Source of the DNA: Mytilus galloprovincialis
Lineage: Eukaryota; Mollusca; Bivalvia; Mytilida; Mytilidae
Assembly: GCF_965363235.1 (NCBI RefSeq)
Contig: NC_134844.1
Span: 53,812,872 to 53,876,871 of the forward strand
Length of the DNA stretch: 64,000 nt
Direction of reading: 5' to 3'
In this document: piece by piece, positions 15,049 through 45,309 of the stretch
Layout of the letters: every line of letters starts with the position of its first letter
How positions within the stretch are numbered: the first letter of the stretch is position 1
Program-made: the position numbers and the translations under genes
The notes under the pieces: model-generated
Told to the model about the DNA's origin: nothing
Database searches by the model: none
Seen by the model: the letters and a program-made list of their open reading frames with translations, nothing else

Positions 15049-16731
15049 TTAGAATAGGTAGTTCTGTTCACTAAACATTGCAAACTCTGTGAAACTGGTT
15101 GGCTGGGGACGAAACCTTTTCCTTGACTGATCTCTCTGTTCTTGAACCAGCTGTACATGTGGTGCATATTCCGGGAATTTTTCGAGGAAATAGTTCGGTA
15201 CTTGACGCTTTCTATTATTTGCTCTGCTCCTCTTGTTGGCAAACCACGACTTGACCTGAGGTACTGTAATTCCAGTTGTTATGGCTAAAATTTCTTTTTC
15301 TTCCTCTGACGGGTATGGATTGGCGATGTGTTGCTGGTACCATGCATTCAAGGCTTCTCTGGATTTACCGCAAAGTTGACTGTTCGTGTTGCCATTGTCT
15401 GTGTCTTTCCTCTTACCGGTTAGCTTATGTTTGATGGGGTGTGTGTTTCCGGTGATGGACAGTGTATTAAAACAACGAACTCGTTTGTTTGCCATCCATT
15501 TCTTCACCTGTTTGGCAGATAGGTTTGTTATGTTTAGAAGTTCTTCTACTTCGTCATCGTTAGGATAGGGGTACGTCACATGAGCGTCATACCATTTTGT
15601 CAGTATCTGTGTGTCTTCTGGTTTAATCTGGCGAGGCCTTGACAAACATTTATCATTTTTTGGTTTCTTTTGTTGTTTATCAGTTGTGAGGTGACTTTCT
15701 TCTTCAAATTTGCGCTTTAGTGATAGTCCCCTTGGTGAATTAGTTCTCTGGTCAGTATTTGGTGGTGATGCCTGCTTGCATTGAATGTAATCCTGTGGAG
15801 GTAAATCGAATGATCCCATTACATTTGAAATATGTACTGAAGTAGTTGCACCAAACTGCTGATACAAGTCTGCGCTTTCAGGGAGAACATCGGCAGCTTC
15901 CATGGCCAAACTGAGAACGTCTATGTCCTGAATCGGTGAACTCGTATCATTTGCTGAGAAACTGGTAGATGCTGATTCATCTGAAAAATTCAAGTTTATA
16001 GTTCTTTTTACAGTTTGTTGGATTTGCTTTGGTGTAGTTTCTAGTAACAAGAGTTCGTCTAGATTACGATTTGTGTCTTCTATCAGCTGAAATCGGCAGT
16101 GGTCAAATCTGTCATGAATGAAATGAGAATTTTCTTTTGATGAGCTGACTTCTATATATCTGGCTACTTCCATTGTGCTCACCTCTTTGGAATATCTACA
16201 TTCAATATCTCGAGCTTTTGTCACAACTTGACAGTTCTGTTGAGATCTGAATTGCAGGAATCTCTTCTGAAGATTTAGATGAGCAGTGTGTATATTTGAA
16301 CCTCGACCAACAGTACTGGTCTTGGTATCCCACTTGACGTTCATTAAGTTTGTTGGTACCTGCATATGTAGGCATTCTTCTGCTAACAATTTGGACAAGT
16401 CTTCAAACATTGGGTTTCGTTGCAAGTTCTGTAAATAATTTTCTTTATTATTGTACAGACTGAGAGGTTTCAGTTGCTGTTCATCAGTTATTAGTCGTCT
16501 GCGAGTCTGTTTGCTGTTGATGTTGTTTCCAGGTTGGGCAGGGTGATAATCTGGTTTCCTTTTGAAGATGGATATCCCTGTTACCGGTGACATGCTATTG
16601 GATTTGTTTTCAGATAACAACAGTAGAGACGGTGACAGAAACTGGAGAAAGTCTGGTGTGGTAGTCTCTAATTGGTCGTGGTTACGATCATCTCCAAACT
16701 GGAACACGTGGTTCTTGTATGGGGTCTCCAT
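15049..16731 (-). CDS. Double TALE-like homeodomain transcription factor, copy 1 (intronless)
   Basis: 560 residues in one exon, start [15 protein letters not shown]. In-frame codons upstream are ignored because the second copy (43615) shares this ATG but not the extension. Two homeodomains lie at about residues 363-421 and 455-510. Both carry the three-residue loop extension with PYP ([18 protein letters not shown]) and a recognition helix with WMANKR or WFANKR, so position 50 is Ala and Asn51 is kept. A basic patch ([17 protein letters not shown]) before the first homeodomain is a likely nuclear localisation signal. The N-terminal half, about 95-235 ([36 protein letters not shown]), matches no domain I know but is strongly conserved in the paralog. 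TALE features place it among DNA-binding regulators. The exact class is not recognised; lophotrochozoan-specific TALE genes are one candidate group. Confidence 0.85.
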
Positions 16732-16830
16732 ATCAATGTTTCGTACTGTATATATATTTTGAGTTTTCTTTTTTTGAGTGAATATTTCTATATTTTGCAA
16801 TGCTGAGATTACGATTATTAATGTAACCTT

Positions 16831-17115
16831 TAACACTATATATATTATTTGTTCTTGTTGTTTTGTAAAGTGACGCGAGTCTCATTCTCAATATGACTGA
16901 GTATGTATACAATGTAAGCAAGGTATACAATTATATATGTTATGATAGCAGAGGATATTGAGTTACACAAAATTAGTACCTCATAGTTATTGTTACTAAC
17001 ATCACATTAATCAAGTCATATTGCAAGGTAACTTCAATTGTCTAAGTATTACGTAATGACTTGATAAACGGTGATTTTAAGTAATTACATTAAGTTGTCT
17101 TTAATTTATGTGTGC
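16831..17115 (-). promoter_or_regulatory. Conserved promoter region, homeodomain gene copy 1
   Basis: A TATATATAGTGTTA box lies about 105 bp upstream of the start. Farther up are GAGACTCGCGTCAC, CTCTGCTATCATAACA and ATTAAAGACAACTTAATGTA. All have counterparts in the same order upstream of copy 2. Confidence 0.6.
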
Positions 17116-17119
17116 ATGG

Positions 17120-18330
17120 AGTGATTCACTCTCGGCAAACCTTATGTATGTAAATTACCAAAGTATTCATATTTCTCCTTGTTTGCATAAATTTAGAACA
17201 AAATGTCATAATATATATACTTTTTACTTGTCATTTGTTCAAATTATCTTCCTGGAATGCCTACTTTTTGAAAAGTAACGGATGTTAGCAGAATAATTTG
17301 AATAAATCATGTGTTAATGGGTAGGGATGTAGTTTTTCAGAACACAATTTATTAAGAAGTTAAAAAGTAATTATATATAGTCAATTATCTTAAACCTAAG
17401 AAAATCACTTTTTTCAATTAAATAAAAAAATAATTGATATGGAATGGATTAAAAGGAATATAGAATATAAAAAAAAAACTTAAAAGAAAAAAGAAACAAT
17501 TAAATTTTGAGATGTGCTTTGATCATTCTTAACATCCCTTGCACTTCCAACATGATCCCAAATTGATTCAATATTCAAGACTTTGTATACGAATCTTGCT
17601 CTCACTATACAAATCCTTGATTCAATTAATTGGGGGAAAATATTTATCAAATTACATCATATTGTTATAAGAAATATCAAAATCTGATTCCAATATGTTC
17701 AAACGTTTTCAGTATGGACTTTTTTTTTGACGCCAACACGGAATTTTTTTCATAGTTAGCGAATCCGATTTGTGGTTTACTTCTAAGACTTCCGGTTTGA
17801 GTTGTAAACAAAAGAAAGAATACAATATGTAAACATTTTGGTCGAAAAGTAAGCAAACGCATCATCATACTATTTTGTAAATCAGCAAAATGAATATATA
17901 TACGATTTCTGATTAACAATTTCGGTTTGTTCGAGCTGTCAGTTAGCCAATGATCTAAATTAACTGAGTATCCCTGTACCAGTCCACTACCAGTACTGGT
18001 GGTACCAGGGAAAGGAACCTCTTTCTAGCTTTAGTGATCATCTAAAAAAACTGGCTTTTTTACAGCCACTAAGGCTTTTACACACAATAATGACTGATCA
18101 GTTTGAACAAAACATAAACAATGTTAATTACATTTGTAACCGGAGGGTCGGGTGGCCTTGCTACAAGTTGCGTCACAGTCCCCTCATGTTGATTAAACAT
18201 GTCAGACATGTCTGTCTTGTTTACGTTTTGTCAAAAGTTTGTTTCACTGGGGCTGAGTTCTGGTAAATAAGACCAAACAGATTTTCAGATACTTTATTAT
18301 TCAAAACAAAATGTATACATGCATGATGCA
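17120..18330. other. Region without a recognised gene
   Basis: AT-rich. The only notable items are a near-palindrome around 17982-18012 (CCAGTACTGG centre) and AAACATGTCAGACATGTCTG at 18195-18214, which resembles p53-type half-sites. Confidence 0.45.
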
Positions 18331-18343
18331 GCCATAACATAAT

Positions 18344-19710
18344 GGCACTGGCTACGGTTACATGGAAATGTAACAATAATAAAAATATTATTGTTACATT
18401 GGAGACTAATTGCCGGAATGCAAAGTTGGGTAAGGAACCAATTAATTACGAATGTAACAATAATTATTGAGGCTACGGTTACATTGCGTCATTGTTACAT
18501 GAAAAACAGCAATGTACGCTAGATTTATTAAACTTAAATCTTCTATATAGTTTTGTTGCTTAATTCATTCATGTCTACTAAATAATACTTGTTATAATAA
18601 TAAATTATAAATATTATTATTCAACAAATGGTGTTTAAATAGTTTTAGGTATTAATGGATTTGATGTTCTTAAAGATACTACTTCAAATTCGTAGTGCCA
18701 AAGGCGAAAAATATAGTTCAATGGTTTGTTGTTGAAAACTCGGGCTGAGAAAACTGTTCACTTTTAAGTATTTAACTGCACACCTACTCGTATTACTGTC
18801 ATTATACTTTGAACAAAAGATGAAGAGATTCCTATTACCAATTTTTTTGGGGTGAAAAATTCAAAACTTGCATTGGATGCGTTTGAAACGAAAATGAAAC
18901 AATAGCAAGACACAAATTTCATACAGCTATACAAACGCATTTACCAAAAATTGATACATCAAAAGCAAAGTTTGCTAACTGTGAACTAACACTGTGAACT
19001 TCTGTATACATGTATAAAATTGAGAATGGAAATGGGGAATGTGTCAAAGCGACAACAACCCGAACATAGAGCAGACAACAGCCGAAGGTCACCAATGGGT
19101 CTTCAATGTAGCGAGAAACTCCTGCACCCGTCGGAGGCGTCCTTCAGCTGACCCCTAAACAAATATGTATACTAGTTCAGTGATAATGGACGTCTAAACT
19201 CCGAATTATACACAAGAAACTAACATTAAAAAATCATACAAGACTAACAAAGGCCATGCAAAGGCTCCTGACTTGAGAAGGCGCAAAATTGCGGCGGGGT
19301 TAAACATGTTTATGAGATCTCAACCCTCCCCTATACCTCTAGCCAATGTAGAAAAAACAAACGCACAACACTACGCATAGTAAAACTCAGTTTAAGAGAT
19401 GTCCGAGTCCGATTTCAGAATCCATGGAGGACGTACTATAAAAAAATCAAAAAATTGTATGTTATACTTGTATGTATTGTAAATATAAGATAACGTCTTC
19501 AACTTTTATTATTTAGTACATATTACTAGTCCCATCGAACATTGCTGTTTTTCATGTAACAATAACGCAATGTAACCGTAGCCTCAACAATTATTGTTAC
19601 ATTCGTAATTAATCGGTTCCTTATCCAACCATGCATTCCGGTATTTAGTCCCCAATGTAACAATAATATTTTTATTATTGTTACATTTCCATGTAACCGT
19701 AGCCAGTGCC
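18344..19710. mobile_element. Long-TIR DNA element, Mutator-like (MULE type), non-autonomous
   Basis: Inverted arms of about 170 bp (18344-18515 and 19540-19710) begin with GGCACTGGCTACGGTTACAT. The flanks carry TAACATAAT on both sides (18335-18343 and 19711-19719), a 9-bp duplication. Long arms plus a 9-bp duplication fit Mutator-like elements. The arms contain nested palindromes (TGTAACAATAAT, ATTATTGTTACA). No transposase is present; the interior carries a family C repeat. Confidence 0.8.
19018..19435 (+). repeat. Dispersed repeat family C nested in the long-TIR element
   Basis: GAAATGGGGAATGTGTCAAA, ACAGCCGAAGGTCACC and GGAGGCGTCCTTCAGCTGAC recur at 46055-46205. Confidence 0.8.
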
Positions 19711-19849
19711 TAACATAATTTAGGTAAATAAAATCATTTGATTAGTATTTTCATTTCACCAGTATATATGTCTATTCTTTTCACAAGTACATCTTATATA
19801 TATAATTACATGTAGTAGGTATAATTCCGCCATAAGAATGACAAAGTCT

Positions 19850-19985
19850 TGTACAAGAAGGGCAAAAGATACCAGAGGGACAATCAAACTCATAGATCGA
19901 AAATAAACTGACAAAGCCATATGGCTAAAAAAGAAAAAGACAAACAGACAAATAATAGTACAAACTATCCAGTATTAAGTTGAAG
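19850..19985 (-). repeat. Dispersed repeat family B, inverted copy
   Basis: AAAAGATACCAGAGGGACAA and CATAGATCGAAAATAAACTG are reverse complements of family B motifs. Confidence 0.75.
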
Positions 19986-20704
19986 AAACATCTACAAAAT
20001 TGTCACAATATAATTTCATTTCAATATTCTATTTATTATTTCCGCTCCTGCACTGTAATATTGTTCATTTTGCGTCATCCAATATTATTGTAAAGCAATT
20101 TTCAGCATTTCCGTTACAAGGTGATATCCATATGTTGATGTTTTATGCAGCTAATGTTGTACCGATCCCAACAGTATACATGTACATGTAGATCTTACTT
20201 TGCTGAACATTATTGCTGTTTACAGATTTTCTCTATCTACATGTATAATAGTCTTCAAAATAATAACAAAAAAAAGTGTATATACACATGTAATACCTTA
20301 AAAAAATTCCTTAATTGAATTCTAAATAAAATAATTGTATTATATATTATGATACATGTATCAAGATTGTCATTTAGGAGAGTCCATGAGTTTTGACTCA
20401 AACAAATCTTTCTGGACTCACCATTTTCAAAACTGGTTAGTCCAAACTCCAAAGATACATCAAGATTGAAATATTTTGTATAAACTAAATTTAATACACA
20501 TATCATTTTATAGCAAAAGTTGAAAAGTATATTTGAATTCAATGTCATTTCATTGCTTTATTAGGTCATGGAGACTTAATTGAAAAATTATATTGCAATA
20601 AAATATCTTCTTTTAACTGTTGGACGCACTGACTATGGCCAACAATGATGTGTCCCTGGACTCTCCTTCAAAAATCCTAAGTGAGAACTCTGATGTATGA
20701 GTTT

Positions 20705-20870
20705 ACATTATTCAAAAGATATAAGAAGATGTGGTATAAGTGCAGATGAGACAACTCTCCATCCAAGTCACAATTTTTAAAAGTAAACCATTACAGGTCA
20801 ATTAGAACGGTCTTCAACGCGAAGCATTTGCTCACACCAAACAGCAAGCTATAAAGTTCCCAAAAATGAC
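20705..20870 (+). repeat. Dispersed repeat, family A relative
   Basis: AGAAGATGTGGTATAAGTGC, GATGAGACAACTCTCCATCC and ACACCAAACAGCAAGCTATA are mirrored at 6575-6735. Confidence 0.7.
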
Positions 20871-21007
20871 TAGTGTATACTAATAGCATGCATATTAATT
20901 ATAATGGCAATTTTTAAATGTAAATGTTTACAACAGTTTTTGTTTGCTTTTGGAATTGATAAGTTAAAAATAATTTTGATTTTTCTGTGTTTATTTTTAG
21001 ATCAAAG

Positions 21008-21136: not shown

Positions 21137-24100
21137 GTATCAGGAAATAAAAAAGCAAAATGTCTGTCCCGTCAACTATATTTGTTGTATGGAAAGATTG
21201 TAAGGTGTATATTTTTGTCTGGCAGGTATCATCTGACCTTGACCTCATTTTCTTGGATCATGTTGAGTTCATGTTATACTTGCAGTACTGGTAAAGATTT
21301 ATGTTTAGGACTATCAACATAAAATCAATAGTTAGTAAAGAAGGCAAGACATTTCAGCGTGTGCACTCTTGTTACATATTAAAGGCACTCCAGAGTACCA
21401 TTTGGTACATTTTTTAACAAATTTTGATTTTTATCTTTTTCACTATCTTTATCTCCTATTTGTGTGGGTTTCTTTTTTTTTTTTTTTTTTTTTTTAAATC
21501 CTTTTTGGTTGATTTAATAAGTTACTAAAAAACCAAGCACCAATATGAAAATTTAGACAAATTATGTCTCATGATACTTAACTTTATCATGTTTATTAGA
21601 CATAAGAAGATGTGGTATGATTACCAATGAGACAACTCTTTTAGCATATTTTCATTTTTTTGTTAGTTCATAATTTATGATTAAATTTTTAAAACTTTGC
21701 AGGCTCACAGATTGGTTCTTGTAGCATCATGTGCTATCTTACAGTCACATGACAACGTAGCAACAGGAACTGTTCTAGAGGTCACATTACCTAGCGACAT
21801 TCCACAAAAGGCAGTTTACATGTTTCTTGAATTTTTGTACCAGGGTCACATGATATTATCGGAAGAGAATGTTGAGGCCATTGAAAAAATTGCCAGACTG
21901 TTACATGCGGGAGATGTTTTAAAGTGTTGTTATGATTTTGCCAAAACAATAAAGTCAGATACTAACAGACAACAAGAAAAATTTAGTTTTCATGAATTAG
22001 TGAGTGTTAATCATATTAGATCAACAAGTTTCATTAAATCTGTTTCCATAGATACAACTCAAGATGACATCAGAGATGACCAGTATTCAGGTCAAAGGTC
22101 ATCAAAAATGGAGACTGCTTTGTCTCAACATTCTGAACATTCATCGCAAGTTAAAACTGCATCATCTGTCTCTTTTAAATCTTCGCCATCTGCTGTCCAA
22201 AAACATAGATTAAATTTAAGTGATCATCAAACATCAAGTTCTTCAAGAACAAAAACAAATTCATCAACAGATTTCTCCGATAGCAGAGACAATTCTTCCT
22301 CACATCATGCACATGGCATTATTGATTTGTCTGACGACTCTCGTCTCAATTCACAGTCTGTTTCTTCTAACCAATCACAAGTGTCTTCTCATCGTAGAAA
22401 CAGTGATCAGACAAGATCATATTCAAATGACCAACACGTTGGATCCAATGTTAGTTCAAAGAGACGACATAGTGATCAGAGTAGACCAAATTCAACGGAC
22501 ACAACTCCGTCTGCTAATAATCAAATGGTGACTTGGGCAAGATCACATGATCAGTATTGTAGATCATTGTCGGAGGAAAGTCTCAACCAAAACAACCTAC
22601 CAAATGTTTCCTTGGGAAGTTACCCAGCTCCGTTTGGTTTTGCCATGCCAGTTATTCCTTCAACCTTATGGAGTGATAAAGCCATGGTGCAGCATTTTAC
22701 GTCACAACAAAATATCAGAAGTTCGTCCAGTAATAGCATTAGTTCATCAACTAGTTCTAAAGCTAGTACCAATCATCAAGGAACCAGAGTTAGTGATTTT
22801 CCAGATCTTCCTATGTGTATAGAACAAGATGATTCAGATGACAATAGGTATGAACAAAACATAAAATAGAAAAACAATGGGTATTGGGTCTCCATCCACG
22901 ACACAAAATCACTACACTTACATAAAAAGCAAAAAAACTCACAAACGATATGGGTTATCCATTCATGACAGGAAAGCAATACATAAAAAGCATAAAAACT
23001 CACAAAAAGCAAAGGACCAGCGCTTTTAAGTCACAGTGAGGCCTTCAAAGTCTGTTCTCAATATAGGTTCGATCAGGGATATTGTTATAACCACTTGAGA
23101 GATTTAACTTTTGAAAAATACAACATTTGGCAAGCAGTTTTAATATTGAAAATTAAACTTAAAAAATTATACAGTCTGCACAATGCAATAGAAAAAATCT
23201 TTATTTATCTGATATTTGTTTAGATTTTGTTTTGTTTGCTAGAAAACTAGATGATTTTTTCCCCTAATGTTGTTGACAACAAATTTCATAATTTAAATGT
23301 AGTTATAAAGGCATAATAAAATATTTATATCTGTATTGCATTACAGTCTGACTCTGTCACAGTACTAGTGAATCAAAGCATATGATATGTTTTTAGAAAA
23401 AAAATCAAATCATGCCAAAAACATGATCCTGTGAAAAGAAAGAATTCAAGATTAAATTAAAAACCAATTGTTCAAAGAACAATTGAAGGTCTTTCCACAA
23501 GTAAAGATCTATTTTATTACCAAAATATTAAAAATCAATCTAAAATGTCAGTTCCTATGGCTTTATAATGTATAAATATGAATTCAAAGCAAAGGTCAAA
23601 ATCTAGAACGTGCAAATTACCAATGACCTTGACCTCAATTTCAAGGTCATAAACCAAGGATCTCAAATCAAAAGCCCTAGGTCTTTATTATGTATGGTTA
23701 ATGAGTTATATCACTTTACGCATAATTCTAAATATAATATTGTCGAAAACTTTTATTTATTGTTTACGCACCCTTTCAACCAAAATTTATAAGTAACGGC
23801 ATGTCACAACTAACAATTTAGTGAAAATAAGATGTTGATATGTTATAAGGTTTTGAAAATAAGTAAAAATAAGCCAAAATAAAAATTTATAATATGACCT
23901 TGACCTTTGACCTTGACCTAATTTTATTTTTTTTGGACCAAGGATCTCAAATCAAAAGACCCTAGGTCTCTATCACTTATGGTTTACCAGTTAGAAATGC
24001 AAATTACTTATATCAAATACATAAGGGGGAATAACTCTCATATGGAGTCTCCGGATAGCTTCGGTCAAAACAAAACTCCTAATCCTGAAGATGTAACGAG

Positions 24101-27100
24101 CAATTTGGTAAAATAAATTTGTCATAATCTTTTACGGTTGCAAAGAAGTAGTGGCCACAAGAAAAACAGTGTTTGGGGAGATAACTCTTACAGCTCAAAG
24201 TATTTAGTTACGCGGTTGTCAGTTTAAAAGCGTATAAACTATACGATATCATATTCCAAATATCTAAGCGACGTCTTTTGAAACAACAAAATTACGCAAG
24301 AAAAAAATTAGGCGGAAGAAAAAAAAAAAATAATAATAATAATAATAATTAAAAACCAATAGTTCAGAGAACAATTGAAGGTCTTTCCACCAGTTCAGAT
24401 CTATTTTGATATTAAAATATTAAAAATAAGTCCAAAATGTCAGTTCCTATGGCTTTATGGTGTTTAAATATGAATTTAAAGCAAAGGTCAAAATCTAGAA
24501 CGTCCTATCAACCTTTGACCTTGACCTCAATTTCAAGGTCACAAACTAAGGACATCGAATCAAAAGACCATAGGTCTTTAATATGTATGGTTAATGTGTA
24601 ATATCACTTTACGCATAATTCTAAATATAAGAGGGGCAAAAACTCCCATTTATGGTCTACGCACCCTTTCAACCAAAATTTATAAGTTACTACAAGTCCC
24701 AACTAACAATTTTGTAAAAATAATTTGTCAATATCTTATAAGATTAATGAAAATGAGTGAAAATAAGCCAAAATCAAAATTTCGAATATGACCTTGAACT
24801 TTAACCTTGACCTAATTTTCATTTTTTTGGACCAAGGACCTCAAATCTAAAGACTCTTGGTCTCTATCATTTATGGTTTACCATTTAGAAATGCATATCA
24901 CTTAATTCAAATGAAAAAGGGGAATAACTCTCATATGAAGTCTCCGTAAAGCTTCGGTCCAAATGAATATCCTAATCCTTAAAATGTAACGAGCAATTTG
25001 GTAAAATAAATTTGTTTTAATCTTTTACGGTTGCGAAGGAGTAGTGGCCACAAGAAAAACAGTGTTTGGGTAGATAACTCTTACAACGTAAAGTATTTTG
25101 TTACGCAGTTGTAAATTTTTAAAGCGTATAAACTATACGATACCATTTTCCAAATATCTAAGCGACATCTTTTGAAACATCAATACTACGCAAGAAAAAA
25201 AATTAGGCGGAAGAAAAAAAAAATAATAATCAGAACAAATTCAATAGGTCTTTCCACGGAAAGGTGGAAAGACCTAATAATCAGAACAAAATCAATAGGT
25301 CTTTCCACGGAAAGGTGGAAAGACCTAAATATTAGAAATAGAAATTGGAAATACCAGTCATTGAAGCGGCACCATTAAATCTATATCATATAGAGTACTT
25401 TAAATTCAGAAATTATTGTGTGAATTTATTATTGTGATTTTGTCATTTTAGCCTAAAATTTTATTTTAATTTTTTACGATATTCAGAAATTCATATAAAA
25501 AAATTCAAAATTGAGTTTTATTTATAGTGATTATAACCCTGTCCCATTTTTCGCAATAATAAATACATTGCAATAATTTATGAATTCAGTGTTAAAGGGA
25601 TATGAAAGAGAAAATGTGGGTTGTTGTTCATTTTTTTAAATATCCAAATGCATTGATAAGTTATATTTAGATTGTATCAAATTTTTATTTACAGGTTGGT
25701 TCTGGATGTTAGTGAAATAGATTTGTCAATGATTAAGACAGAAAGTATAGAAGAACCATTGGATCTACATGTAAAAGGGGCCTTTCAGCTAGAGGAAATT
25801 AACAGTATGTTTTAGATGATCGAGAAATGTTTTAAGTTTTATGATATAATGCAGATGACAATCAGGTCCCAAAATTGAAAAAGGGCAGACAACCTAATGA
25901 CAAAAAAAAATATTTATCATACCTGCCAATTTTGAGGTACTTTAAGCAAAAAAAGAACATTGTACATATGATTACATACAAATGACATTTAAAGGCTGTT
26001 GTTCAGTGGCTGTTGTTTTTTGTTTTTGTTTTTTAGAGTAAAATAAATAATACAAGTTCAACTTTGTCATCTCTTTAAATCCAGCTAATGGGAGAACACT
26101 CTGTAATCTTTGAATTCATTTAGAATGGAATATATATACATTGCTAATTTTGTTAACAATTCAAAGAAGTAAGTACATATTCTATTTAAAGAAAATTTCT
26201 TATGTATACCTGCTATACCCCAATCTGTATCTGCACAGAGTAAAGTTTTATTGAATAATCAAAGTTATGAATTCAGAGTCTTAAATTAAGAGATCAGTTC
26301 TCAGATAAATGTTTCACTGAATTTTACTTCAAAGCTGTACCCAATACATTAAATTAGTTTTTTGGGTAGATCAAATGACTAGTGTCACCCGAAACTCTCA
26401 TTATACAGGCAGTCATTATTATTTTTGTATTAACATTTTTTCTTATAATATCTTACGTTCAAAATTCAATTAAGTAATTTATTAAATCTATAACATAAAT
26501 CATTATTCACAAATAATTAGATATTACTTGATTAATTTATAACAAGTCTACAATTTGTTTTGCCAATAGATATCTAACAGTTTGATTTTAAACCAGTTGT
26601 TAAAATAATTATAATGCTAAACGGAAAATGTGGTTTATGCAGACTTTTTTCTTCTTTAATTAAAGATATCTTCAGATTTTTCTTATTTTGATTTTATTTG
26701 GTTTCTAATTATAAGGAAGGACTATGGTATCCGAGTCTAGTATGGTAAAACCAGATGCCGGCAGCAAACCAGTTCAGGAGAAGTCTTCAGAGAACCAAGC
26801 AAGACAATACCCTAGTACCATCCCATACAGTGCAGCCTACCAACCATCTGTAAATAACGATTATTCAAAACAGTGGTCGGCACAGCTTCAGTCAGCTGTT
26901 GTGAAAAAGAGACCTATGAGCATGTCGTCAAATGTGCGGAAAATCATTCAAGACCTTAATTTAAATAGGCGAGCGCTGGCGAGTCCTGCTTCTCTTAATT
27001 CTCTTGCTGTTGGAAATCACAAACCTATAAGGATGCCCGGAAAGAATAACTATAAAGTCTGTTCCTTGTGCTATAGAAACAAAATCAGAACAAAGTCTGG

Positions 27101-27218
27101 GTATTATGTATACAGTTATTATAAATGTTCTGTTTGTGATGTGCCTCTGTGTATCGGTAGAAGGAAATGTTTCTTAGAATATCATAAAGAGGCAGAAGTA
27201 AATAAAGCAAAAGACTAA
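21008..27218 (+). CDS. BTB-domain protein with C-terminal piggyBac-type zinc finger, four coding exons
   Basis: Coding exons 21008-21136, 21703-22847, 25695-25804 and 26716-27218 join in phase to 628 residues. Residues about 15-135 form a BTB/POZ fold (LWRNRLMCDADIVTG, AHRLVLVASCAIL, AVYMFLEFLYQGHMILSEEN, IARLLHAGDVLKCCYDFA), usually a dimerisation or cullin-adaptor module. A long Ser/Gln/His-rich low-complexity middle (about 150-410) follows. Exon 3 contains an IKTE sumoylation-type motif at about 438-441. The C-terminus has a Cys/His cluster: Cys 577, 580, 599, 602, 607 and 613, and His 618 (VCSLC, YYKCSVCDVPLC, KCFLEYH). This matches the pattern of the zinc finger at the end of piggyBac transposases. 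No DDE domain is visible. The likely role is a nuclear DNA-binding adaptor or repressor, inferred from the two domains. The exon 1 acceptor at 21000 implies an upstream non-coding exon, not located. Confidence 0.8.
21168..21400 (+). repeat. Dispersed repeat family E in BTB intron 1
   Basis: GTCTGGCAGGTATCATCTGA and CCTTGACCTCATTTTC recur, diverged, at 33640-33860 and 38808-39085. Confidence 0.6.
21598..21645 (+). repeat. Family A repeat fragment
   Basis: AGAAGATGTGGTATGATTAC followed by CAATGAGACAACTCTT is the 5' motif of family A. Confidence 0.8.
21703..22847 (+). CDS. BTB gene coding exon 2
   Basis: Acceptor AACTTTGCAG, donor AATAG|GTATGA, phase 0 in and phase 2 out. It holds most of the BTB domain and the low-complexity Ser-rich middle. 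Reading past the donor would stop at 22869. Confidence 0.85.
23458..25233 (+). repeat. Tandem duplication of an 0.89-kb unit in BTB intron 2
   Basis: Copies at about 23458-24350 and 24351-25233 start with AACAATTGAAGGTCTTTCCA and end in AAATTAGGCGGAAGAAAAA. They are similar but clearly diverged. Both carry clusters of TGACCT/TGACCTT half-sites in fixed positions. Short ORFs inside are not genes. Confidence 0.85.
25245..25327. repeat. Two identical short hairpins
   Basis: TAGGTCTTTCCAC, a short loop and GTGGAAAGACCTA occur at 25245-25276 and again at 25296-25327. They echo the GGTCTTTCCAC start of the adjoining 0.89-kb units. Confidence 0.85.
25695..25804 (+). CDS. BTB gene coding exon 3
   Basis: 110 nt, acceptor TTTATTTACAG, donor GTATGT, phase 2 in and phase 1 out. 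It encodes LVLDVSEIDLSMIKTESIEE, an acidic segment with a sumoylation-type motif. Confidence 0.75.
26716..27218 (+). CDS. BTB gene coding exon 4 (zinc finger and stop)
   Basis: Acceptor ATTATAAG, phase 1. The frame is open to TAA at 27216-27218. It carries the C-terminal Cys/His cluster. Confidence 0.8.
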
Positions 27219-32752: not shown

Positions 32753-32759
32753 ATATTGA

Positions 32760-33635: not shown

Positions 33636-33639
33636 TTTC

Positions 33640-34017: not shown

Positions 34018-37000
34018 CAAGGCTTGATTAGGATGGTCCACACAAAGCACTAAAATAAACAAGTAACAAACAGACTTACCAGTAAGACACAAAGCACTGA
34101 TTAGGATGGCCCACACAAAGCACTAAAATAAAGAACTAACAAACAGACTTACCAGTAAGGCACAAAGCACTGATTGGGATGGCCCACACAAAGCACTAAA
34201 ATAAACAACTAACAAACAGACTTACCAGTAAGACACAAAGCACTGGTTAGGATGGTCCGTACAAAGCACTAAAACAAACAACTAACAAACAGACTTACCA
34301 GTAAGACATAAAGCACTGATTAGGATGGTCCACACTAAAATAAACAACTAACAAACAAACTTACCAGTAAGACACAAAGCACTGATAAGGATGGTCCACA
34401 CAAAGCACTAAAATAAACAACTAACAAACAGACTTACCAGTAAGACACAAAGCACTGATAAGGATGGTCCGTACAAAGCACTAAAATAAACAACTAACAA
34501 ACAGACTTATCAGTAAGACACAAAGCACTGATTAGGATGGTCCACACAAAGCACTAAAATAAACAACTAACCAACAGACTTACCAGTTAGACACAAAGCA
34601 CTGATTAGGATGGTCCACACAAAGCACTAAAATAAACAACTAACAAACAGACTTACCAGTAAGACACAAAGCACTGATTATGATGGTCCACACAAAACAC
34701 TAAAAAAATAACTAACAAACAGACTTACCAGTAAGACACAAAGCACTGATAAGGATGGTCCACACAAAGCACTAAAATAAACAACTAACAAACAGACTTA
34801 CCAGTAAGACACAAAGCACTGATAAGGATGGTCCGTACAAAGCACTAAAATAAACAACTAACAAACAGACTTACCAGTAAGACACAAAGCACTGATTATG
34901 ATGGTCTACACAAAGCACTAAAATAAACAACTAACAGACAGACTTACAAGTAAGACACAAAGCACTGATAAGGATGGTCCACACAAAGCACCAAAATAAA
35001 CAACAAACAGACTTACCAGTAAGACACAAAGCACTGATTAGGATGGTCCACACTAAAATAAACAACTAACAAACAGACTTACCAGTAAGACACAAAGCAC
35101 TGATTAGGATGGTCCACACAAAGCACTAAAATAAACAACTAACAAACAGACTTACCAGTAAAACACAAAGCACTGATTAGGATGGCCCACACAAAGCACT
35201 AAAATAAACAACTAACAAACAGACTTACCAGTAAGACACAAAGCACTGATTATGATGGTCCACACAAAGCACTAAAATAAACAACTAACAAACAGACTTA
35301 CCAGTAAGACACAAAGCACTGGTTAGGATGGTCCACACAAAGCACTAAAATAAACAAGTAACAAACAGACTTACCAGTAAGACACAAAGCACTGATTAGG
35401 ATGGTCCACACAAAGCACTTAAATAAACAACTAACAGACAGACTTACCAGTAAGACACAAAGCACTGATTAGGATGGTCCACACAAAGCACTAAAATAAA
35501 CAACTAACAGACAGATTTACCAGTAAGACACAAAGCACTGATTAGGATGGTCCGTACAAAGCACTAAAATAAACAACTAACAGACAGACTTACCAGTAAG
35601 ACACAAAGCACTGATAAGGATGGTCCGTACAAAGCACTAAAATAAACAACTAACAAACAGACTTACCAGTAAGACACAAAGCACTGATTAGGATGGTCTG
35701 TACAAAGCACTAAAATAAACAACTAACAAACAGACTTACCAGTAAGACACAAAGCACTGATAAGGATGGTCCACACAAAGCACTAAAATAAACAACTAAC
35801 AAACAGACTTACCAGTAAGACACAAAGCACTGATAAGGATGGTCCTTACAAAGCACTAAAATAAAAACTAACAAACAGACTCACCAGTTAGACACAAAGC
35901 ACTGATTATGATGGTCCACACAAAGCACTAAAATAAACAACTAACAGACAGACTTACCAGTACGACACAAAGCACTCGTTAGGATGGTCCACACAAAGCA
36001 CTAAAATAAACAACTAACAAACAGACTTACCAGTAAGACACAAAGCACTGATAAGGATGGTTCTTACAAAGCACTAAAATAAACAACTAACAAACAGACT
36101 CACCAGTAAGACACAAAGCACTGATTATGATGGTCCACACAAAGCACTAAAATAAACAACTAACAGACAGACTTACCAGTACGACACAAAGCACTCGTTA
36201 GAATGGTCCACACAAAGCACTAAAATAAACAACTAACAAACAGACTTACCAGTAAGACACAAAGCACTGATTATGATGGTCTACACAAAGCACTAAAATA
36301 AACAACTAACAGACAGACTTACAAGTAAGACACAAAGCACTGATAAGGATGGTCCACACAAAGCACTAAAATAAACAACTAACAAACAGACTTACCAGTA
36401 AGACACAAAGCACCGATTAGGATGGTTCACACAAAGCACTAAAATAAACAACTAACAGACAGACTTACCAGTAAGACACAAAGCACTGATAAGGATGGTC
36501 CACACAAAGCACTAAAATAAACAACTAACAAACAGACTTACCAGTAAGACACAAAACACTGATTATGATGGTCCACACAAAGCACTAAAATAAACAACTA
36601 ACAGACAGACTTACCAGTAAGACACAAAGCACTGATTAGGATGGTCCGTACAAAGCACTTAAATAAACAACTAACAAACAGACTTACCAGTAAGACACAA
36701 AGCACTGATAAGGATGGTCAACACAAAGCACTAAAATAAACAACTAACAGACAGACTTACGAGTAAGACACAAAGCACCGATTAGGATGGTTCACACAAA
36801 GCACTTAAATAAACAAGTAACAAACAGACTTACCAGTAAGACACAAAGCACTGATAAGAATGGTCCACACTAAAATAAACAACTAACAAACAAACTTACC
36901 AGTAAGACACAAAGCACTGATAAGGATGGTCCACACAAAGCACCAAAATAAACAACAAACAGACTTACCAGTAAGACACAAAGCACTGATTAGGATGGTC

Positions 37001-38574
37001 CACACTAAAATAAACAACTAACAAACAGACTTACCAGTAAGACACAAAGCACTGATTAGGATGGTCCACACAAAGCACTAAAATAAACAACTAACAAACA
37101 GACTTACCAATAAGACACAAAGCACTGATTAGGATGGCCCACACAAAGCACTAAAATAAACAACTAACAAACAGACTTACCAGTAAGACACAAAGCACTG
37201 ATTATGATGGTCCACACAAAGCACTAAAATAAACAACTAACAAACAGACTTACCAGTAAGACACAAAGCACTGGTTAGGATGGTCCACTCAAAGCACTAA
37301 AATAAACAAGTAACAAACAGACTTACCAGTAAGACACAAAGCACTGATTAGGATGGTCCGTACAAAGCACTAAAATAAACAACTAACAAACAGACTTACC
37401 AGTAAGACACAAAGCACTTATTAGGATGGTCCACACAAAGCACTTAAATAAACAACTAACAGACAGACTTACCAGTACGACACAAAGCACTGATTAGGAT
37501 GGTCCACACAAAGCACTAAAATAAACAACTAACAGACAGACTTACCAGTAAGACACAAAGCACTGATTAGGATGGTCCGTACAAAGCACTAAAATAAACA
37601 ACTAACAGACAGACTTACCAGTAAGACACAAAGCACTGATAAGGATGGTCCACACAAAGCACTGAAATAAACAACTAACAAACAGACTTACCAGTAAGAC
37701 ACAAAGCACCGATTAGGATGGTCCACACAAAGCACTAAAATAAACAACTAACAGACAGACTTACCAGTAAGACACAAAGCACTGATTATGATGGTCCACA
37801 CAAAGCACTAAAATAAACAACTAACAGACAGACTTACGAGTAAGACACAAAGCACCGATTAGGATGGTTCACACAAAGCACTTAAATAAACAAGTAACAA
37901 ACAGACTTACCAGTAAGACACAAAGCACTGATAAGAATGGTCCACACTAAAATAAACAACTAACAAACAAACTTACCAGTAAGACACAAAGCACTGATAA
38001 GGATGGTCCACACAAAGCACCAAAATAAACAACAAACAGACTTACCAGTAAGACACAAAGCACTGATTATGATGGTCCACACAAAGCACTAAAATAAACA
38101 ACTAACAGACAGACTTACCAGTAAGACACAAAGCACTGATTACGATGGTCCACACAAAGCACTAAAATAAACAACTAACAGACAGACTTACGAGTAAGAC
38201 ACAAAGCACCGATTAGGATGGTTCACACAAAGCACTTAAATAAACAAGTAACAAACAGACTTACCAGTAAGACACAAAGCACTGATAAGAATGGTCCACA
38301 CTAAAATAAACAACTAACAAACAAACTTACCAGTAAGACACAAAGCACTGATAAGGATGGTTCACACAAAGCACCAAAATAAACAACAAACAGACTTACC
38401 AGTAAGACACAAAGCACTGATTAGGATGGTCCACACAAAGCACTAAAATAAACAACTAACAAACAGACTTACCAGTAAGACACAAAGCACTGGTTAGGAT
38501 GGTCCACACAAAGCACTAGAATAAACAAGTAACAAACAGACTTACCAGTAAGACACAAAGCACTGATTAGGATG
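34018..38574 (+). repeat. Satellite array, 73-bp unit, about 62 copies
   Basis: The unit consensus begins GACACAAAGCACTGATTAGG and ends CTAACAAACAGACTTACCAG followed by TAA. Units vary at fixed points (GATTAGG, GATAAGG or GATTATG; AACAGAC or GACAGAC; CCACAC or CCGTAC), and some lack the CAAAGCAC segment. The variants recur in blocks, giving higher-order structure; for example the unit with CACCAAAATAAACAACAAAC occurs at 34989, 36941, 38018 and 38372. No reading frame runs through it. Confidence 0.95.
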
Positions 38575-38615
38575 TTCCTGATTCATTGATCGGAAAAGGT
38601 TTCATGGTAGGATAA

Positions 38616-38790: not shown

Positions 38791-38807
38791 TACTATAAAC
38801 ATCAGGT

Positions 38808-39085: not shown

Positions 39086-39139
39086 CAATCCTACATTCCG
39101 TCGGCGGCGGCGCCGTCCACAAATATTCATTTCAGTGTG

Positions 39140-40110
39140 GATAAAGTTTTTGAAATTTTTTCTTAAACTGTTCTGGAATTTTACTGAACTTTGACAGAAA
39201 CTTTTTCATGATCATAAGATGGTATACAAAAGTAAATTTTGTAAAAAAAAAATCCTTATTCGTATTTTGTTTACATCGGATTCTACTGAGTGTATAGCCA
39301 AAGGTAATATCTTTGGTTAGCTTGCTTGTTAGCTGAACCGTGAAGTCATTGTTAGCTTAGGTAAACTACCCTTCTTTAAGAATAGACCAGTCCGACAGAA
39401 AACCAGTCTATCTGTCTGTTGGACTATGCTACTTCAATAGGAGGGTAGTATACCTGACCTAATAATGACTTCACGGTTCAGCTAACAAGCAAGCTAACCA
39501 AAGATATTACCTTTTGCTACACACTCAATGGAATCCGCTGTAATATGAATGGATTTAGTTTTTTTGCCAATTAACATTACATTCATTCAGTAGTTCAAGT
39601 TTAACTTTTTTAAACTATCCTGGAATTTTACCGAACTAAGACAGAAGCTTGTTTATTGTCATAAGAAAGTATCCAGAATTTCATTGTGTAAACAAAAAGT
39701 CCTGTTTATCCGTATTTTATGTGTAAATGGACTTAGTTTTTTTCTGCCAGTTAACATTTTCGTACGTTCTGTGGTTAAAATGTTTTAAGATTTTAATAAC
39801 TTTCTCAAACTATTCAGGATGTGTTCCAAACTTGAATAGAAACGTGTTAATGATCAAAGGCAAGTATCTAGAAAGGAATTTCGTAAACATTTATTTCCTG
39901 TTTTTCTGTATACATATTACTTATAAATGGACTGTTTTCTTCCAGTTAACATTACTTAGACTGCAGTTAAAGTTTTTAAAACTCTTATTAGATTCATTAA
40001 CCATCCTGGATATTTACCAAACTTAGACAGAAGCTTCACGTAACAATCAAAAGATAGAATCTCGAGGAAAAATTTTAATAATTGTTTCTCCATATTTTGT
40101 TGAGCCTGCG
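39140..40110 (+). repeat. Diverged tandem repeat, about four copies, interrupted by a MITE
   Basis: The pattern AAACT-TCCTGGAATTTTACC-GAACT, then GACAGAAGCTT, then a CATAAGA-type stretch recurs at about 39165, 39612, 39815 and 39998. Each is followed by a Tcc-rich stretch and, in several, CCAGTTAACATT. Spacing is about 185-200 bp apart from the MITE insertion. Confidence 0.6.
39277..39537. mobile_element. Palindromic MITE, arms about 95 bp
   Basis: The left arm CGGATTCTACTGAGTGTATA to TTAGCTGAACCGTGAAGTCA is mirrored by TGACTTCACGGTTCAGCTAA to CACTCAATGGAATCCG. The centre is about 60 bp. It is inserted in the diverged tandem repeat. No target duplication is evident. Confidence 0.8.
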
Positions 40111-40842
40111 ATAAACTGATCTTCCTTTATTACAGATTATTTTACGGTTACGAATGAAAATCATGTCAAAACTTCACAACTGAGACCCATCAAAACACCC
40201 TGAGAGATAATTGTCAACAAAACAGAACCCTATACCGGCTCTATGTTTATAAGATAATTTATAGGTTATATGTTTCGTTGAATTTACTGTTTTGCTTTTG
40301 TCGTTGGATTGATGTCTCAGTGAACCGTTATTCATTTTTTTTATATTAATGTGCAAAATTACTGCAATTTCTCTTCTTGAATTTACTCTTCCTAAAATAA
40401 AAAATAAATGACGACACCTGTCCTTATTTTTTATCTTGATATTATTACACATGTTAAAAGTCATATAAAGAGCCTTGAAATAAAACAGGACAATTTTTCG
40501 TTTCCTATAGATACTTTCCTTTCTTTAATGGTGATGTTCCTTTATAGCTCTTTATTGTTATCCTTGACGTATACCTTATATCTCCTTTTATGCATATTAA
40601 TACCATGCACAGTGTTGATATGTTTTGTTGGATTTACTGTTAAGTTTGCATGTGCTACTCTGATATAAATACTATGCGCTACTATATATGTGCTGATATT
40701 AGACACTTGTTTTAATATATCTTGCTTAGCTTTTATTCTCCATGTGCTATCTATGCATTAATATATATATGTGATGTCTGTATGTTTGTGTTGTATGTGT
40801 ATCTGATGTTATTACATGTATGTTTTGTGATTAATATCAGTC

Positions 40843-41610
40843 GGTTACTTACTTACTTACTGCCCATTACGCCCATTGGCGTGTGGGGCAGCAACGAAGT
40901 TTCTCCACATCTGTATGTTTTGTGCCATCTTCTTCAAGCTCCCCCAAGTATGTTGGAAATTTGCCATCTCAGACTCAACTGTGCACCGCCATGTTATTTT
41001 AGGTCGTCCTCTGCGTCTCTTTCCCTCTGGGGTCCAGAACATTGCTGTGTTTGTAAGTTCTTCAGGGCTCTTGCGTAAAACATGGCCAATCCATCTCCAT
41101 CTTCTCCTGCTAATGAGTATGCTGATCTCTTCCTGTTTGCATTTAATGAGGAGGTCCTGGTTGGTGATTTTTTGTGGCCAAAATATCCTTAGGATTCTCC
41201 TCAGACTCTTGGTATGGAATGTAGAGAGCTTTTGTTGGTCTGCCTCTGTCATTCGCCAACATTCAGAACCATACAACAGGATAGGTAGTATACAACTGTT
41301 GTATAGTTTTAGCTTTGTCCGGATGGTGTATTGACCGGATTTCCATACGGGCTGCAGGTTATTGAATGCAGCTCTAGCTTTTGACAGTCTTTGTTTGATG
41401 TCAGTGTTGGCTCCACCATCTGATCTTACAGTACTTCCTAGGTACGTGAAGGTATCGGTCTGTGGTAATGGTTTCCCGTTTATTATAATTGGTGCTGGGT
41501 TATTAGTGTTTAAACTCATTACTTCAGTTTTCTTAGTGTTTATTTTGAGACCTATATGTCCTGCATACTTTTCTATTCGACTGGACTTTTCCTGGATATA
41601 TTGGTGAGTG
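40843..41610 (-). pseudogene. 5'-truncated LINE (non-LTR retrotransposon), C-terminal part of reverse transcriptase
   Basis: The minus reading is open from about 41603 to 40857. It contains GLKINTKKTEVM, TYLGSTV, LPILLYGSECW, LRRILRIFWP, RRRWRWIGHVLRK and RRRGRPKITW, the thumb and C-terminal region typical of LINE reverse transcriptases of the RTE/CR1-like type. The catalytic FADD box and endonuclease are absent, so it is a dead 5'-truncated insertion. The 3' end is a TAAG tandem tail (plus strand TTACTTACTTAC at 40847-40859). At about 41610 it abuts a family A repeat. Confidence 0.85.
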
Positions 41611-42090
41611 TGCGATAGCCAATGATTGCCGATGAGACAACTATCTACAAAAGACCAAAATGACACAGACATTAACAACTATAGGTCACCGTACGGCCTT
41701 CAACAATGAGCAAAGCCCATACCGCATAGTCAGCTATTAAAAAAGGCCCCGATAAGACAATGTAAAAGTTAACAATTCAAACGAGAAAACTAACGGCCTT
41801 ATTTATGTAAAAAAAAATGAACGAGGAACAAATATGTAACACATAAACAAACGACAGCCACTGAATTACAGGCTCCTGACTTGGGACAGGCACATACATA
41901 AATAATGTTGCGGGGTTAAACATGTTAGCGGGATCCCAACCCCCTAACCTGGGACAGTGGTATGAACAGTACAATATAAGAACGAACTATAAAAATCAGT
42001 TGAAAAAGGCTTAACTCATCAGATGGACAAAAATACAAGTGGACGTAGCCCGGTAACCCGACTTTAAATAAAGATTACTTTACTTTACTG
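41611..42090 (+). repeat. Dispersed repeat family A, long copy
   Basis: The most complete copy here. It runs from AATGATTGCCGATGAGACAA through GGTCACCGTACGGCCTTCAA and GGGTTAAACATGTTAGCGGG to CCCGGTAACCCGACTTTAAA. It carries no coding capacity. Confidence 0.85.
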
Positions 42091-42462
42091 CTTGTGTTAT
42101 GTCGTTCTGTTGATGGCTCATTGGCGTATCAACACCTCTATGTATCTATGTTAGCAAGGATTTGTACAGTGACATTATATATACCAATCCATGATGTTGA
42201 TTATTTTTTGTAGAGCTTTTACTATATGAGAATGTCAGAATAAACGTTTTCTTAATTATTTTTTATTTTATTTTAAAAGCTGGTTTTTCTCCTTTCAATG
42301 ATGAGGAATAGTTAACACAAAGATTTCATTCTTAATGTTTGAAATTTTCGAAGGATGTTTCGTTATGCAAGTTGCAATGGCGGAATTAAGCCTGTGTCAC
42401 CAATTTTTATCTATTTTGAATACCTGAAATATAAATTTCGAGTGAAAATAAAAACATTCCTT

Positions 42463-42481
42463 GGGGGGGGGGGGGGGGGGC
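42463..42481 (+). repeat. Poly-G tract
   Basis: About 18 G after ATTCCTT. Confidence 0.9.
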
Positions 42482-43117
42482 ATTTATTTTTTTCGACTTT
42501 CCTAAATAGAATAGTTGTTTAATTGATTGTGACTTTTTTATGAATACGTGTATTTTATACTTGCAAAATGAGGGCGTGTGTGTTATACTTTTTTTGTTGG
42601 TCCCAACAGACACCCATGTTACAAACACAGATTCAAACTGCAGATCGATTTTCTTTCTCTATCCTCGTGATTTTTATCAAGGGATTCATCATTACTATCT
42701 GACGATGAAATGTTTTGACAAGATGAATTAATACTAGACATTTCAAGAAATTCAAAACAAACAAGTGCGAAAATTGTATTGTTCCTTGATGGTCTTGTTA
42801 TGCAGATTATTTAAAAAATGATTGCTCTAAAATGTAAAGATGTAAATCAAGAATGTTGATTATCTAACACTTGAAATATTGTTATGCCCTTGACCAATTT
42901 CTCAACGCAATTGCAGCTCCAGTATTATAAAAGATTGTGATTCGAGAGACGCATTTTTTTTTTCGATAATTATTTATCAACTTACAGCAAAACATACTAA
43001 AGGTTTGTCTTCTTTAATATAAACTAGTATATCTTATTTATTTTAACCATAAAAATGTATATTGGTATGAAATATGAATTACCAATATAAGTACAGGGTT
43101 TTTGCCACTATGTATAA

Positions 43118-43205
43118 AAAAGAAGATGTGGTATGATTGCCAATGAGACAATATTCTCTCCACAAGAGACCAAATGACACAGAAATGAACAACTATAGGT
43201 AACCT
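43118..43205 (+). repeat. Family A repeat fragment
   Basis: AAGAAGATGTGGTATGATTG and CACAAGAGACCAAATGACAC match the start of family A. Confidence 0.85.
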
Positions 43206-43299
43206 ACGATTAAAACAAACTTTGATAATTAATAAATACACATCTAAAGTGCTATAATTAGTTTACTTAATTATTTACACATAAAAAAAGTTGTTTTTA

Positions 43300-43512
43300 A
43301 AAATAATTAAAGACAATCAATTTAATGTAATTACTTTAAATGGTTTTAATCAAGTGTACTATTATGTTATTTATAATTGATACGGGGTTCTTATTCGGAC
43401 AGCTCAGTTTGCTCTGCTATCATAACACACAAGTACACACTTTGCTTCCGTGTACACATACTCAAATTGAGAACGAGACTCCCGTCACTTCACGAAAACA
43501 CTATATATAGTG
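43300..43512 (+). promoter_or_regulatory. Conserved promoter region, homeodomain gene copy 2
   Basis: ATTAAAGACAATCAATTTAA, CTCTGCTATCATAACA, GAGACTCCCGTCACTT and a CTATATATAGTGTTA TATA-like box (about 105 bp before the ATG) occur in the same order as upstream of copy 1. Confidence 0.6.
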
Positions 43513-43614
43513 TTAAATATTACAGTTTAAATCATAATCTCAACATTGCACTATAAAAAAATATTCTCTCGAAAAAAAAAAAACTCAAAAAGATATACTG
43601 AAAGTAGCTTTGAT

Positions 43615-45309
43615 ATGGAGACCCCATACAAGAACCACGTATTCCAGTTTGGAGACGATCGTAGCCACGGCCAATCAGAAATTACAACGCCAGATTTTCT
43701 CAAGTTTCTGTCACCGTCTCTGTTGTTGTTCTCTGACAACAAATCCAATAGCATGTCACCGGTAACAGGAATATCAATCTTCAATAGGAAACAGGATGAT
43801 CCCCTAGTTACATCTCAACCTTTACACTGTTTCCATGGAAACAACATCAGCAGCAAACAGGCTCGCAGACGACTACTCGCTGATGGACAGCAACTGAAAC
43901 CGTTGTACAAAAATAAAGACAATTATTTACAGAACTTGCAACAAAACCCAATGTTTGAAGACCTATCCAAGTTGTTGGCAGAAGAATGCTTACATATGCA
44001 GGTACCAACAAACTTACTGAACGTCAAATGGGATACCAAGAACAGTACTGCTGGTCGAGGCTCAAATATTCACCTTGCTCATCTTAATCTTCAGAAGAGA
44101 TTCTTGCAATTCAGATCTCAACAGAACCGTCAGGTTGTGACAAAAGCTCGAGACATTGAATGTAGATATTCAAAAGAGGTGAGCACAATGGAAGTAGCCA
44201 GATACTTGGAAGTCAGCTCCTCACAAGGTCAGACTCATTTCATTCATGACAGATTTGACCAATGCCGATTTCAGCTGATAGAAGACACCAATCGTAATCT
44301 AGACGAACTCTTGTTACTAGAAACTACACCAAAACAAATCCAACAAACTACGAAAAGAGCTATAAACTATAGTGCTTCAGATGAATCAGCATCTAACAGT
44401 TTCTCATCAAATGATACGAGTTCACCGATTCAGGACATAGACGTTCTCAGTTTGGCCATGGAATCTGCCGATGTTCTCCCTGAAAGTACAGAATTGTTTC
44501 AGCAGTTTGGTGCATCCGCTTCAGCTCATATTTCAAATTTAATGGAAACATTTGATTTACCTCGACAGGATTACATGCAATACCAGCAGGTAGCACCACC
44601 CACTGACCAGACAACCAATCTACAAAGACGGCAATCACTAAAGCGGAAATTTGAAGAAGAAAGTAACCTTCCAATTGACCAACAACATAAGAAACCGAAA
44701 ACTGATAGATGTCTGCCAAAGACACGCCAGATTAAACCAGAAGCTACACAGATACTGACAGCATGGTATGACGCTCATGTGACGTATCCATACCCTAACG
44801 ATGATGAAGTAGAAGAACTAGCAAACATTACAAACCTCACAACCAAACAGGTGAAGAAATGGATGGCAAACAAAAGAGTTCGTTGTTTTAATACTCTATC
44901 CATCACCGGAAACACACATCCGATCAAACATAAGCTTACCGGAAAGAAGAAAGACACAGACAATGATAACACGTACAGTCAACTTGGCGGTAAATCCAGA
45001 GAAGCCTTGAACGCATGGTACAAGCAACACATCGCCAATCCATACCCATCAGAGGAAGAAAAGGAAATGCTAGCCATTACAACCGGTATAACAGTACCTC
45101 AAGTCAAGTCGTGGTTTGCCAACAAGAGGAGCAGAGCAAATAACAGAAAGCGTCAAGTACCAAACTATTTCCTCGAAAAATTCCCAGAATATGCACCACA
45201 TGTACAGCTAGTTCAAGAGCAAAGAGACCAGTCAAGGAAAAGGTTTCGTCATCAGCCCACCAATTTCACAGAGTTTGCAATGTTTAGTGAGCAAAACTTC
45301 TTATTCTAA
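43615..45309 (+). CDS. Double TALE-like homeodomain transcription factor, copy 2 (intronless)
   Basis: 564 residues, one exon, starting [15 protein letters not shown]. It is a close paralog of the gene at 15049-16731 and lies on the opposite strand. It has the same two homeodomains with PYP loop extensions (TYPYPNDDE and ANPYPSEEE) and WMANKR and WFANKR recognition helices, the same basic stretch ([17 protein letters not shown]), and the same conserved N-terminal region ([20 protein letters not shown]). Differences are mostly conservative and spread along the protein, with a small insertion near residue 65-75 ([13 protein letters not shown]), so both copies appear to be under constraint. An upstream in-frame ATG at 43546 is not shared by copy 1 and is disregarded. 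Function is expected to be sequence-specific DNA binding; the target is unknown. Confidence 0.85.

Follow-up and report, generated by a model that had tools for sequence, protein, structure and literature searches.

The window analysed here is a stretch of 64,000 nucleotides from Mytilus galloprovincialis (C7:53812872-53876871 in a 1.38-Gb genome) that holds two divergently oriented genes, each encoding a TALE protein with two homeodomains. The same genome has 17 matches to the Myticin-prepro family, all above its cut-off, and as myticins are peptides of Mytilus mussels this agrees with a mytilid source. The plus-strand gene is named B1 (43615-45309) and the minus-strand gene B2 (15049-16731). 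They encode proteins of 564 and 560 amino acids, respectively, each within one coding exon, as determined from open reading frames (ORFs), domain and genome searches and alignment. Both are best filed as further members of the SPILE-B / TALE clade IV (TALE-IV) family, and a short element, AGTGCT in the DNA and AGUGCU in the RNA, lies shortly after their stop codons and after those of most other SPILE-type genes found in this genome.

Architecture and copies of the gene pair

Both proteins matched Homeobox_KN (PF05920) and Homeodomain over two stretches each, with whole-protein E values of 4.3e-29 and 1.5e-30 (the minus-strand protein lacked its first Met in this search). Homeodomain 1 (HD1) of B1 covers approximately residues 366-428 (44710-44898, plus strand) and has WM instead of WF in helix 3, and homeodomain 2 (HD2) covers approximately residues 450-512 (44962-45150, plus strand), the ends of both being counted from the conserved Trp. 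The corresponding domain matches in B2 lie at approximately residues 362-424 (15460-15648, minus strand) and 446-508 (15208-15396, minus strand). An earlier note on this DNA had given the same coordinates, strands and lengths for the two ORFs and had recognised two homeodomains with a PYP loop in each protein. The domain matches bear this out, and the loop is present in both homeodomains of all five two-homeodomain paralogues described below. An AlphaFold model of B1, for which the alignment consisted of the two window proteins, had a mean predicted local distance difference test score of 39.3 and a predicted template modelling score of 0.20. Two three-helix homeodomains are visible in it, with block means of about 60-79, and the region upstream of them is modelled as helical and is unreliable.

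The two genes are arms of an inverted duplication (43403-45486, plus strand, and 14866-16962, minus strand). DNA homology extends over 2.1 kb at 85.5% identity, from about 210-230 bp before the ATG to about 180 bp past the stop, and two short homologous patches lie just outside this alignment. Homology through promoters and 3' flanks, as proposed in the earlier note, therefore holds for these short flanks and, apart from the two patches, fails beyond them. Of 557 aligned residues, 473 (84.9%) are shared by the two proteins.

A six-frame genome search with B1 gave 27 matches, among which are five full-length two-homeodomain genes, so the paralogous pair of the window is real but the gene is not confined to it. 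B3 (C7:54000969-54002627, minus strand) and B4 (C7:54005722-54007404, plus strand) lie on the same chromosome, which thus carries four genes as two divergent pairs, B2(-) B1(+) and B3(-) B4(+), about 143 kb apart. The fifth copy, B5, is at C12:36758478-36760283 (plus strand), where two matches fall inside one 647-codon frame. Protein identity in the nine pairs other than B1-B2 is 37-58%, and synonymous differences in these pairs are saturated or nearly so (proportion of differing synonymous sites, pS, 0.73-0.83).

Between B1 and B2, synonymous divergence (dS) is 0.31 and non-synonymous divergence (dN) 0.075, a ratio of 0.24 by our own Nei-Gojobori count. By region, it falls to 0.083 across the two homeodomains with their linker and tail, is 0.20 in the upstream PADRE-like region and 0.28 in the N terminus, and reaches 0.71 in the spacer. 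The duplicates are thus intact and under purifying selection, and both have been maintained as working proteins.

Family placement and history

A tree was made from 38 homeodomains: 10 from B1-B5, 13 from single-homeodomain SPILE-type genes and 10 of canonical type, all from this genome, together with five PDB segments (PBX1, extradenticle, MEIS2, PKNOX1 and TGIF1). It omits 11 of the 44 Homeobox_KN matches, among which two-homeodomain genes count twice, namely three SIX-like matches, one MEIS-like partial exon and seven weak matches; a homeodomain match at C12:39571133 lies outside this set. The 13 single-homeodomain genes (L015, L016, L017, L018, L019, L024, L027, L028, L029, L035 and L070-L072) are those extracted, not a proven full set, and their SPILE-type label is itself deduced from the homeodomain tree and upstream-region homology. 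Several of them are clustered, at C7 23.03 Mb, C4 82.8 Mb and C9 53.86 Mb, and the C9 genes are very divergent.

The 23 SPILE-type domains are split at 98.9/100 from the 15 that are canonical-type (IRX/TGIF/MEIS/PKNOX/PBX-type) or from PDB. HD1 of the five genes forms one clade (81.7/92), as does HD2 (75.4/82). All five copies have WMAN in HD1, where Met replaces the Phe that normally follows the helix-3 Trp, and WFAN in HD2. The Asn, Arg and Arg by which the recognition helix contacts DNA are kept in both. The best PDB match was PBX1, to HD2. The earlier note had assigned the domains to TALE, and neither the domain search nor the tree places them outside that class. Its statement that animal TALE classes carry a single homeodomain is correct for the canonical families (PBC, MEIS, PKNOX, TGIF, IRX and MKX), from which the window proteins differ in having two and from which the tree sets their domains apart, but it does not extend to the TALE class at large, which includes SPILE-B / TALE-IV.

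The published family accounts for this architecture. Most TALE clade IV sequences carry two homeodomains, and members occur in annelids and molluscs (PMC6118893); the SPILE-B clade is described as having two homeodomains and a modified PADRE domain (PMC8524836); and the oyster and the mussel Mytilisepta have three two-homeodomain TALE genes each (PMC8524836, PMC6118893). The earlier note had considered the tandem homeodomains unusual and had named a known, well-described family of this architecture as grounds for refutation, and this spiralian family is such a case (PMC6118893, PMC8524836). A novel architecture was thereby ruled out and that interpretation dropped; two-homeodomain TALE genes are not mentioned in the available portion of PMC7566022. 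The single coding exon is no rarity either: no fewer than three single-homeodomain SPILE-type genes (L016, L017 and L019) likewise have the upstream domain and the homeodomain in the same open frame.

The upstream domain was found by profile-profile comparison (hhalign) with the upstream regions of single-homeodomain SPILE-type genes. Residues 104-239 of B1 (43924-44331, plus strand) matched that of L016 with a probability of 92.7% (E 4e-7) and that of L017/L019 with a probability of 90.8% (E 1e-6), and none of 100 column shuffles reached the score in either case. L018 was borderline (1.2%, 1 of 100 shuffles as high), and no support came from L015 (0.3%, 20 of 100 shuffles as high) or from the three C9 genes (0.3%, 19 of 100). 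Alignment to B1 places the domain of B2 at residues 99-234 (16030-16437, minus strand). A PADRE-type region is published for most A/C genes, for D and for most B genes, and none for E (PMC8524836), a distribution with which the pattern among the single-homeodomain genes agrees. The region in B1 and B2 is thus identified indirectly as PADRE-type, by homology to L016 and L017/L019 and not by a published PADRE sequence.

The window genes accordingly show the features described for SPILE-B, namely two TALE homeodomains, a position in the SPILE clade, a PADRE-type upstream region and a conserved block C-terminal to each homeodomain, the last in all five paralogues and like the published blocks by description. 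Taken together, it is highly probable that B1 and B2 are SPILE-B inverted duplicates encoding two-homeodomain, PADRE-type transcription factors that, by analogy, would be activated briefly at about the 16-cell stage. Counting against this assignment, membership is judged from published descriptions and not from direct alignment with published SPILE-B proteins, and support for the separate HD1 and HD2 clades is moderate.

The two-homeodomain state is most likely older than all five copies, including B5 on another chromosome; because the HD1s of the five paralogues group together, as do the HD2s, it was not made at the inverted duplication in the window. For the origin of the two domains, whether one homeobox was duplicated within the gene or two neighbouring genes fused, approximately unbiased (AU) tests on 56 columns rejected none of seven trees (p-AU 0.32-0.69), and they were equally permissive as to which of HD1 and HD2 stands closer to the single-homeodomain genes. 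Constraints 5 and 6 have the same likelihood as the maximum-likelihood tree and are uninformative.

This latitude, and the independent gain of a second homeobox on record for leech (H. robusta) TALE-XIX A (PMC6118893), could be taken to favour an independent two-homeodomain TALE family that merely resembles SPILE-B. We consider this very improbable, as the two-domain layout, the upstream region and the block after each homeodomain in five paralogues all match the SPILE-B / TALE-IV descriptions. It is equally hard to credit that the window ORFs are exons of larger spliced genes and the single-exon structure an artefact of reading DNA. The structures were indeed read from DNA alone; the homeodomain frames of L024, L027, L028, L029 and L035 are too short for an upstream domain; and acceptor-like sequence occurs at L024, L027 and L028. 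The five two-homeodomain copies, however, have ATG-to-stop frames of 556-640 amino acids, four of which start METP[YH]K and the fifth MDYQ, in B1-B3 an AATAAA follows the first base of the stop codon by 85-94 nt, and B1/B2 homology stops 210-230 bp upstream of the ATG. The earlier description of the genes as intronless thus stands for the coding region, and an intron in the 5' untranslated region (UTR) could still be accommodated by the DNA. On C7, a divergent-pair block might have been duplicated in inverted form, followed by conversion between the window copies, and the divergent arrangement of both C7 pairs would suit this course. Block duplication of an older divergent pair predicts that B1-B4 and B2-B3 are closest. 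The paralogue tree instead joins B1 with B2 and, weakly, B3 with B4 (64/67), so that either each pair had its own in-place inverted duplication, which these groupings fit as well, or B1 and B2 later converted. Synonymous divergence between B1 and B2 is low at codons 210-289, a mildly significant stretch (of 5000 permutations, 24 were as low at this 80-codon width, and 292, 111 and 41 at widths of 40, 60 and 100 codons). Non-synonymous change is not reduced in this stretch, which conversion alone would not leave, so no clear conversion tract is evident, and the block-and-conversion history appears rather unlikely.

The AGUGCU element in SPILE-type 3' flanks

Scanning of the 3' flanks located the first AGTGCT after the stop of B1 at 45333-45338 and a second, just past the AATAAA, at 45404-45409 (both plus strand); the corresponding sites of B2 are at 15020-15025 and 14950-14955 (both minus strand). 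The element was first spotted as AGTGCTA near the stop in the B1, B2, B3 and B5 flanks and was then scanned for more widely. Of 18 SPILE-type genes, 16 have AGTGCT in the 200 nt past the stop, compared with 3 of 27 other homeobox ORF ends with sufficient flank (L005, L006 and L092; Fisher p 1.9e-7). L007, whose frame extends beyond the locus, was not counted as a control, and the 27 control ends may include exon ends instead of true stops. None of ten canonical-type TALE ORF ends has the element within 200 nt, but most of these are probably exon ends, which makes them a poor control. Of random 200-nt stretches drawn from other loci, 3.4% contain it.

Among 13 diverged representatives the element is present in 11, where 0.5 would be expected from a first-order Markov model (Fisher p 1.0e-5 against the controls). 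It ranks first by observed/expected among hexamers found in at least four of the 13, and its reverse complement is found in none of them, so the enrichment is strand-specific. The p values concern a post-hoc motif; a calculation of our own that corrects for all 4096 hexamers still puts 11 of 13, with a rate of about 4% per flank, far below chance. Counting from the first nucleotide of the stop codon, the first AGTGCT is 26-46 nt downstream in 12 of the 16 genes that have it; the 11 representatives contain 16 sites, 8 of which fall between 20 and 50 nt (binomial p 0.0016). Over all 26 sites the next base is A in 18 and the preceding base T in 18; an A opposite microRNA position 1 is preferred in microRNA sites.

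What is published of SPILE expression offers a setting for such an element. The three Mytilisepta B genes are expressed in 2d at the 16-cell stage, SPILE genes act in quartet-lineage specification in the limpet, the pattern of SPILE expression changes in the space of one or two divisions, and the authors of that study inferred that SPILE transcript localisation rests on mRNA degradation (PMC8524836). A 3' element common to the family would be the expected kind of signal for localisation of this sort; the words UTR, untranslated and microRNA are absent from the main text of that paper. By analogy with Mytilisepta and limpet, B1 and B2 may be transiently activated around the 16-cell stage, help to specify second-quartet (2d) blastomeres and be active for one or two cleavage cycles. 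As putative transcription factors, both of whose homeodomains are predicted to bind DNA, they would use one domain or both to act on early zygotic targets. AGUGCU would then promote removal or confinement of their transcripts, by way of a microRNA with seed AGCACU or of an RNA-binding protein. We put at about even the chance that the whole SPILE family carries AGUGCU(A) as a post-transcriptional tag, usually 26-46 nt past the stop and sometimes repeated near the poly(A) signal, through which one trans-acting factor clears the transcripts as quartets are specified. The element looks new, and we infer its function.

Several observations weigh against this proposal. B4 and L018 have no AGTGCT within 200 nt of the stop, and the SPILE-type 3' ends were taken from ORFs and not from transcripts. 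Neither a microRNA with seed AGCACU nor any other reader of the element came up in the literature searches. AGUGCU is the seed of killifish miR-430 itself and not its target site (PMC6127099), so the embryo-clearing miR-430 does not explain the element. In zebrafish, deletion of an AGUGCU site in pdx1 predicted for Rbm38 was without effect (PMC12866639). The open-access literature gave, among the matches listed, no mollusc paper that by title concerned AGUGCU or a matching microRNA seed; the matches listed for oyster-embryo microRNAs included nothing plainly on AGUGCU or its seed; and the ten of 39 listed for SPILE with mRNA degradation or 3' UTR held no SPILE paper beyond PMC8524836 and PMC6118893. 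The Rbm38 result, the three controls that carry AGTGCT, the second AGTGCT within about 11 nt of the AATAAA in B1, B2, B3 and the three C9 genes, and the fact that the genes bearing the element are all paralogues, so that part of the sharing is common descent, would also agree with a sequence that plays no part in transcript turnover and is simply inherited or linked to formation of the 3' end. We find this explanation credible but somewhat doubtful. The first sites at 26-46 nt are mostly away from the AATAAA, the enrichment is confined to one strand, and chance retention is unlikely because synonymous sites are saturated or nearly so in the nine pairs other than B1-B2.

Should the clearance tag prove true, it would be a molluscan counterpart of the 3'-UTR boxes that Drosophila Notch target genes share. 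Being common to 16 of 18 SPILE-type genes, it offers a concrete element to mutate, and AGCACU a seed to seek in small-RNA data.

A 73-bp tandem array of about 63 copies lies between B2 and B1 (34025-38578, plus strand). A 151-base query gave 29 genome matches, all in this array, in a search that skips very common words. On its plus strand AGCACT, which is complementary to the SPILE 3' element, is present 109 times and AGTGCT is absent; this may be coincidence, because about 2% of shuffled units would hold AGCACT.

Surrounding sequence and comparison with known systems

A dispersed repeat occurs in the window at 1697-1976, 7384-7803, 41622-42025, 45578-45852 and 47377-47577, and also in loci L068 and L069. 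Its pieces, of about 180-410 bp and 77-91% alike within the window, flank several two-homeodomain genes. Remnants of mobile elements lie at 26724-27218 and 40857-41672, with a zf-Tnp_2 match and an ORF that by eye resembles the end of a retroelement reverse transcriptase, and the ORF at 21820-22869 has a weak BTB match at its start, below the cut-off. Outside the window, two further homeobox matches are found 42-48 kb past B4 (C7:54049261-54054928), and matches of similar score are paired at C7 10.50 and 20.46 Mb; these may be a second expanded homeobox family on C7.

The closest known genes are those of SPILE-B, limpet NfSPILE-B and mussel MvSPILE-3, -4 and -5, which are likewise two-homeodomain mollusc TALE genes, mostly with a modified PADRE-type region and with duplications in bivalves (PMC8524836). 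The window pair extends the known bivalve SPILE-B expansion to five copies in one genome, whereas the three bivalves in Table 1 of that paper have two to three, and differs from these reports in that four of the five copies form two divergent pairs on one chromosome (PMC8524836). TALE clade IV, with oyster TALE7, 8 and 14 and members in Pinctada and annelids, shares the two TALE homeodomains and the conserved block after each (PMC6118893). Some annelid TALE-IV genes have introns inside the homeoboxes, or one homeodomain degraded or truncated (PMC6118893), whereas both are intact and within one coding exon in all five genes here. Hdx, dve/Compass, Zfhx, Zhx/Homez, Mux and Dux also have more than one homeodomain, but they are not of the TALE class (PMC6118893).

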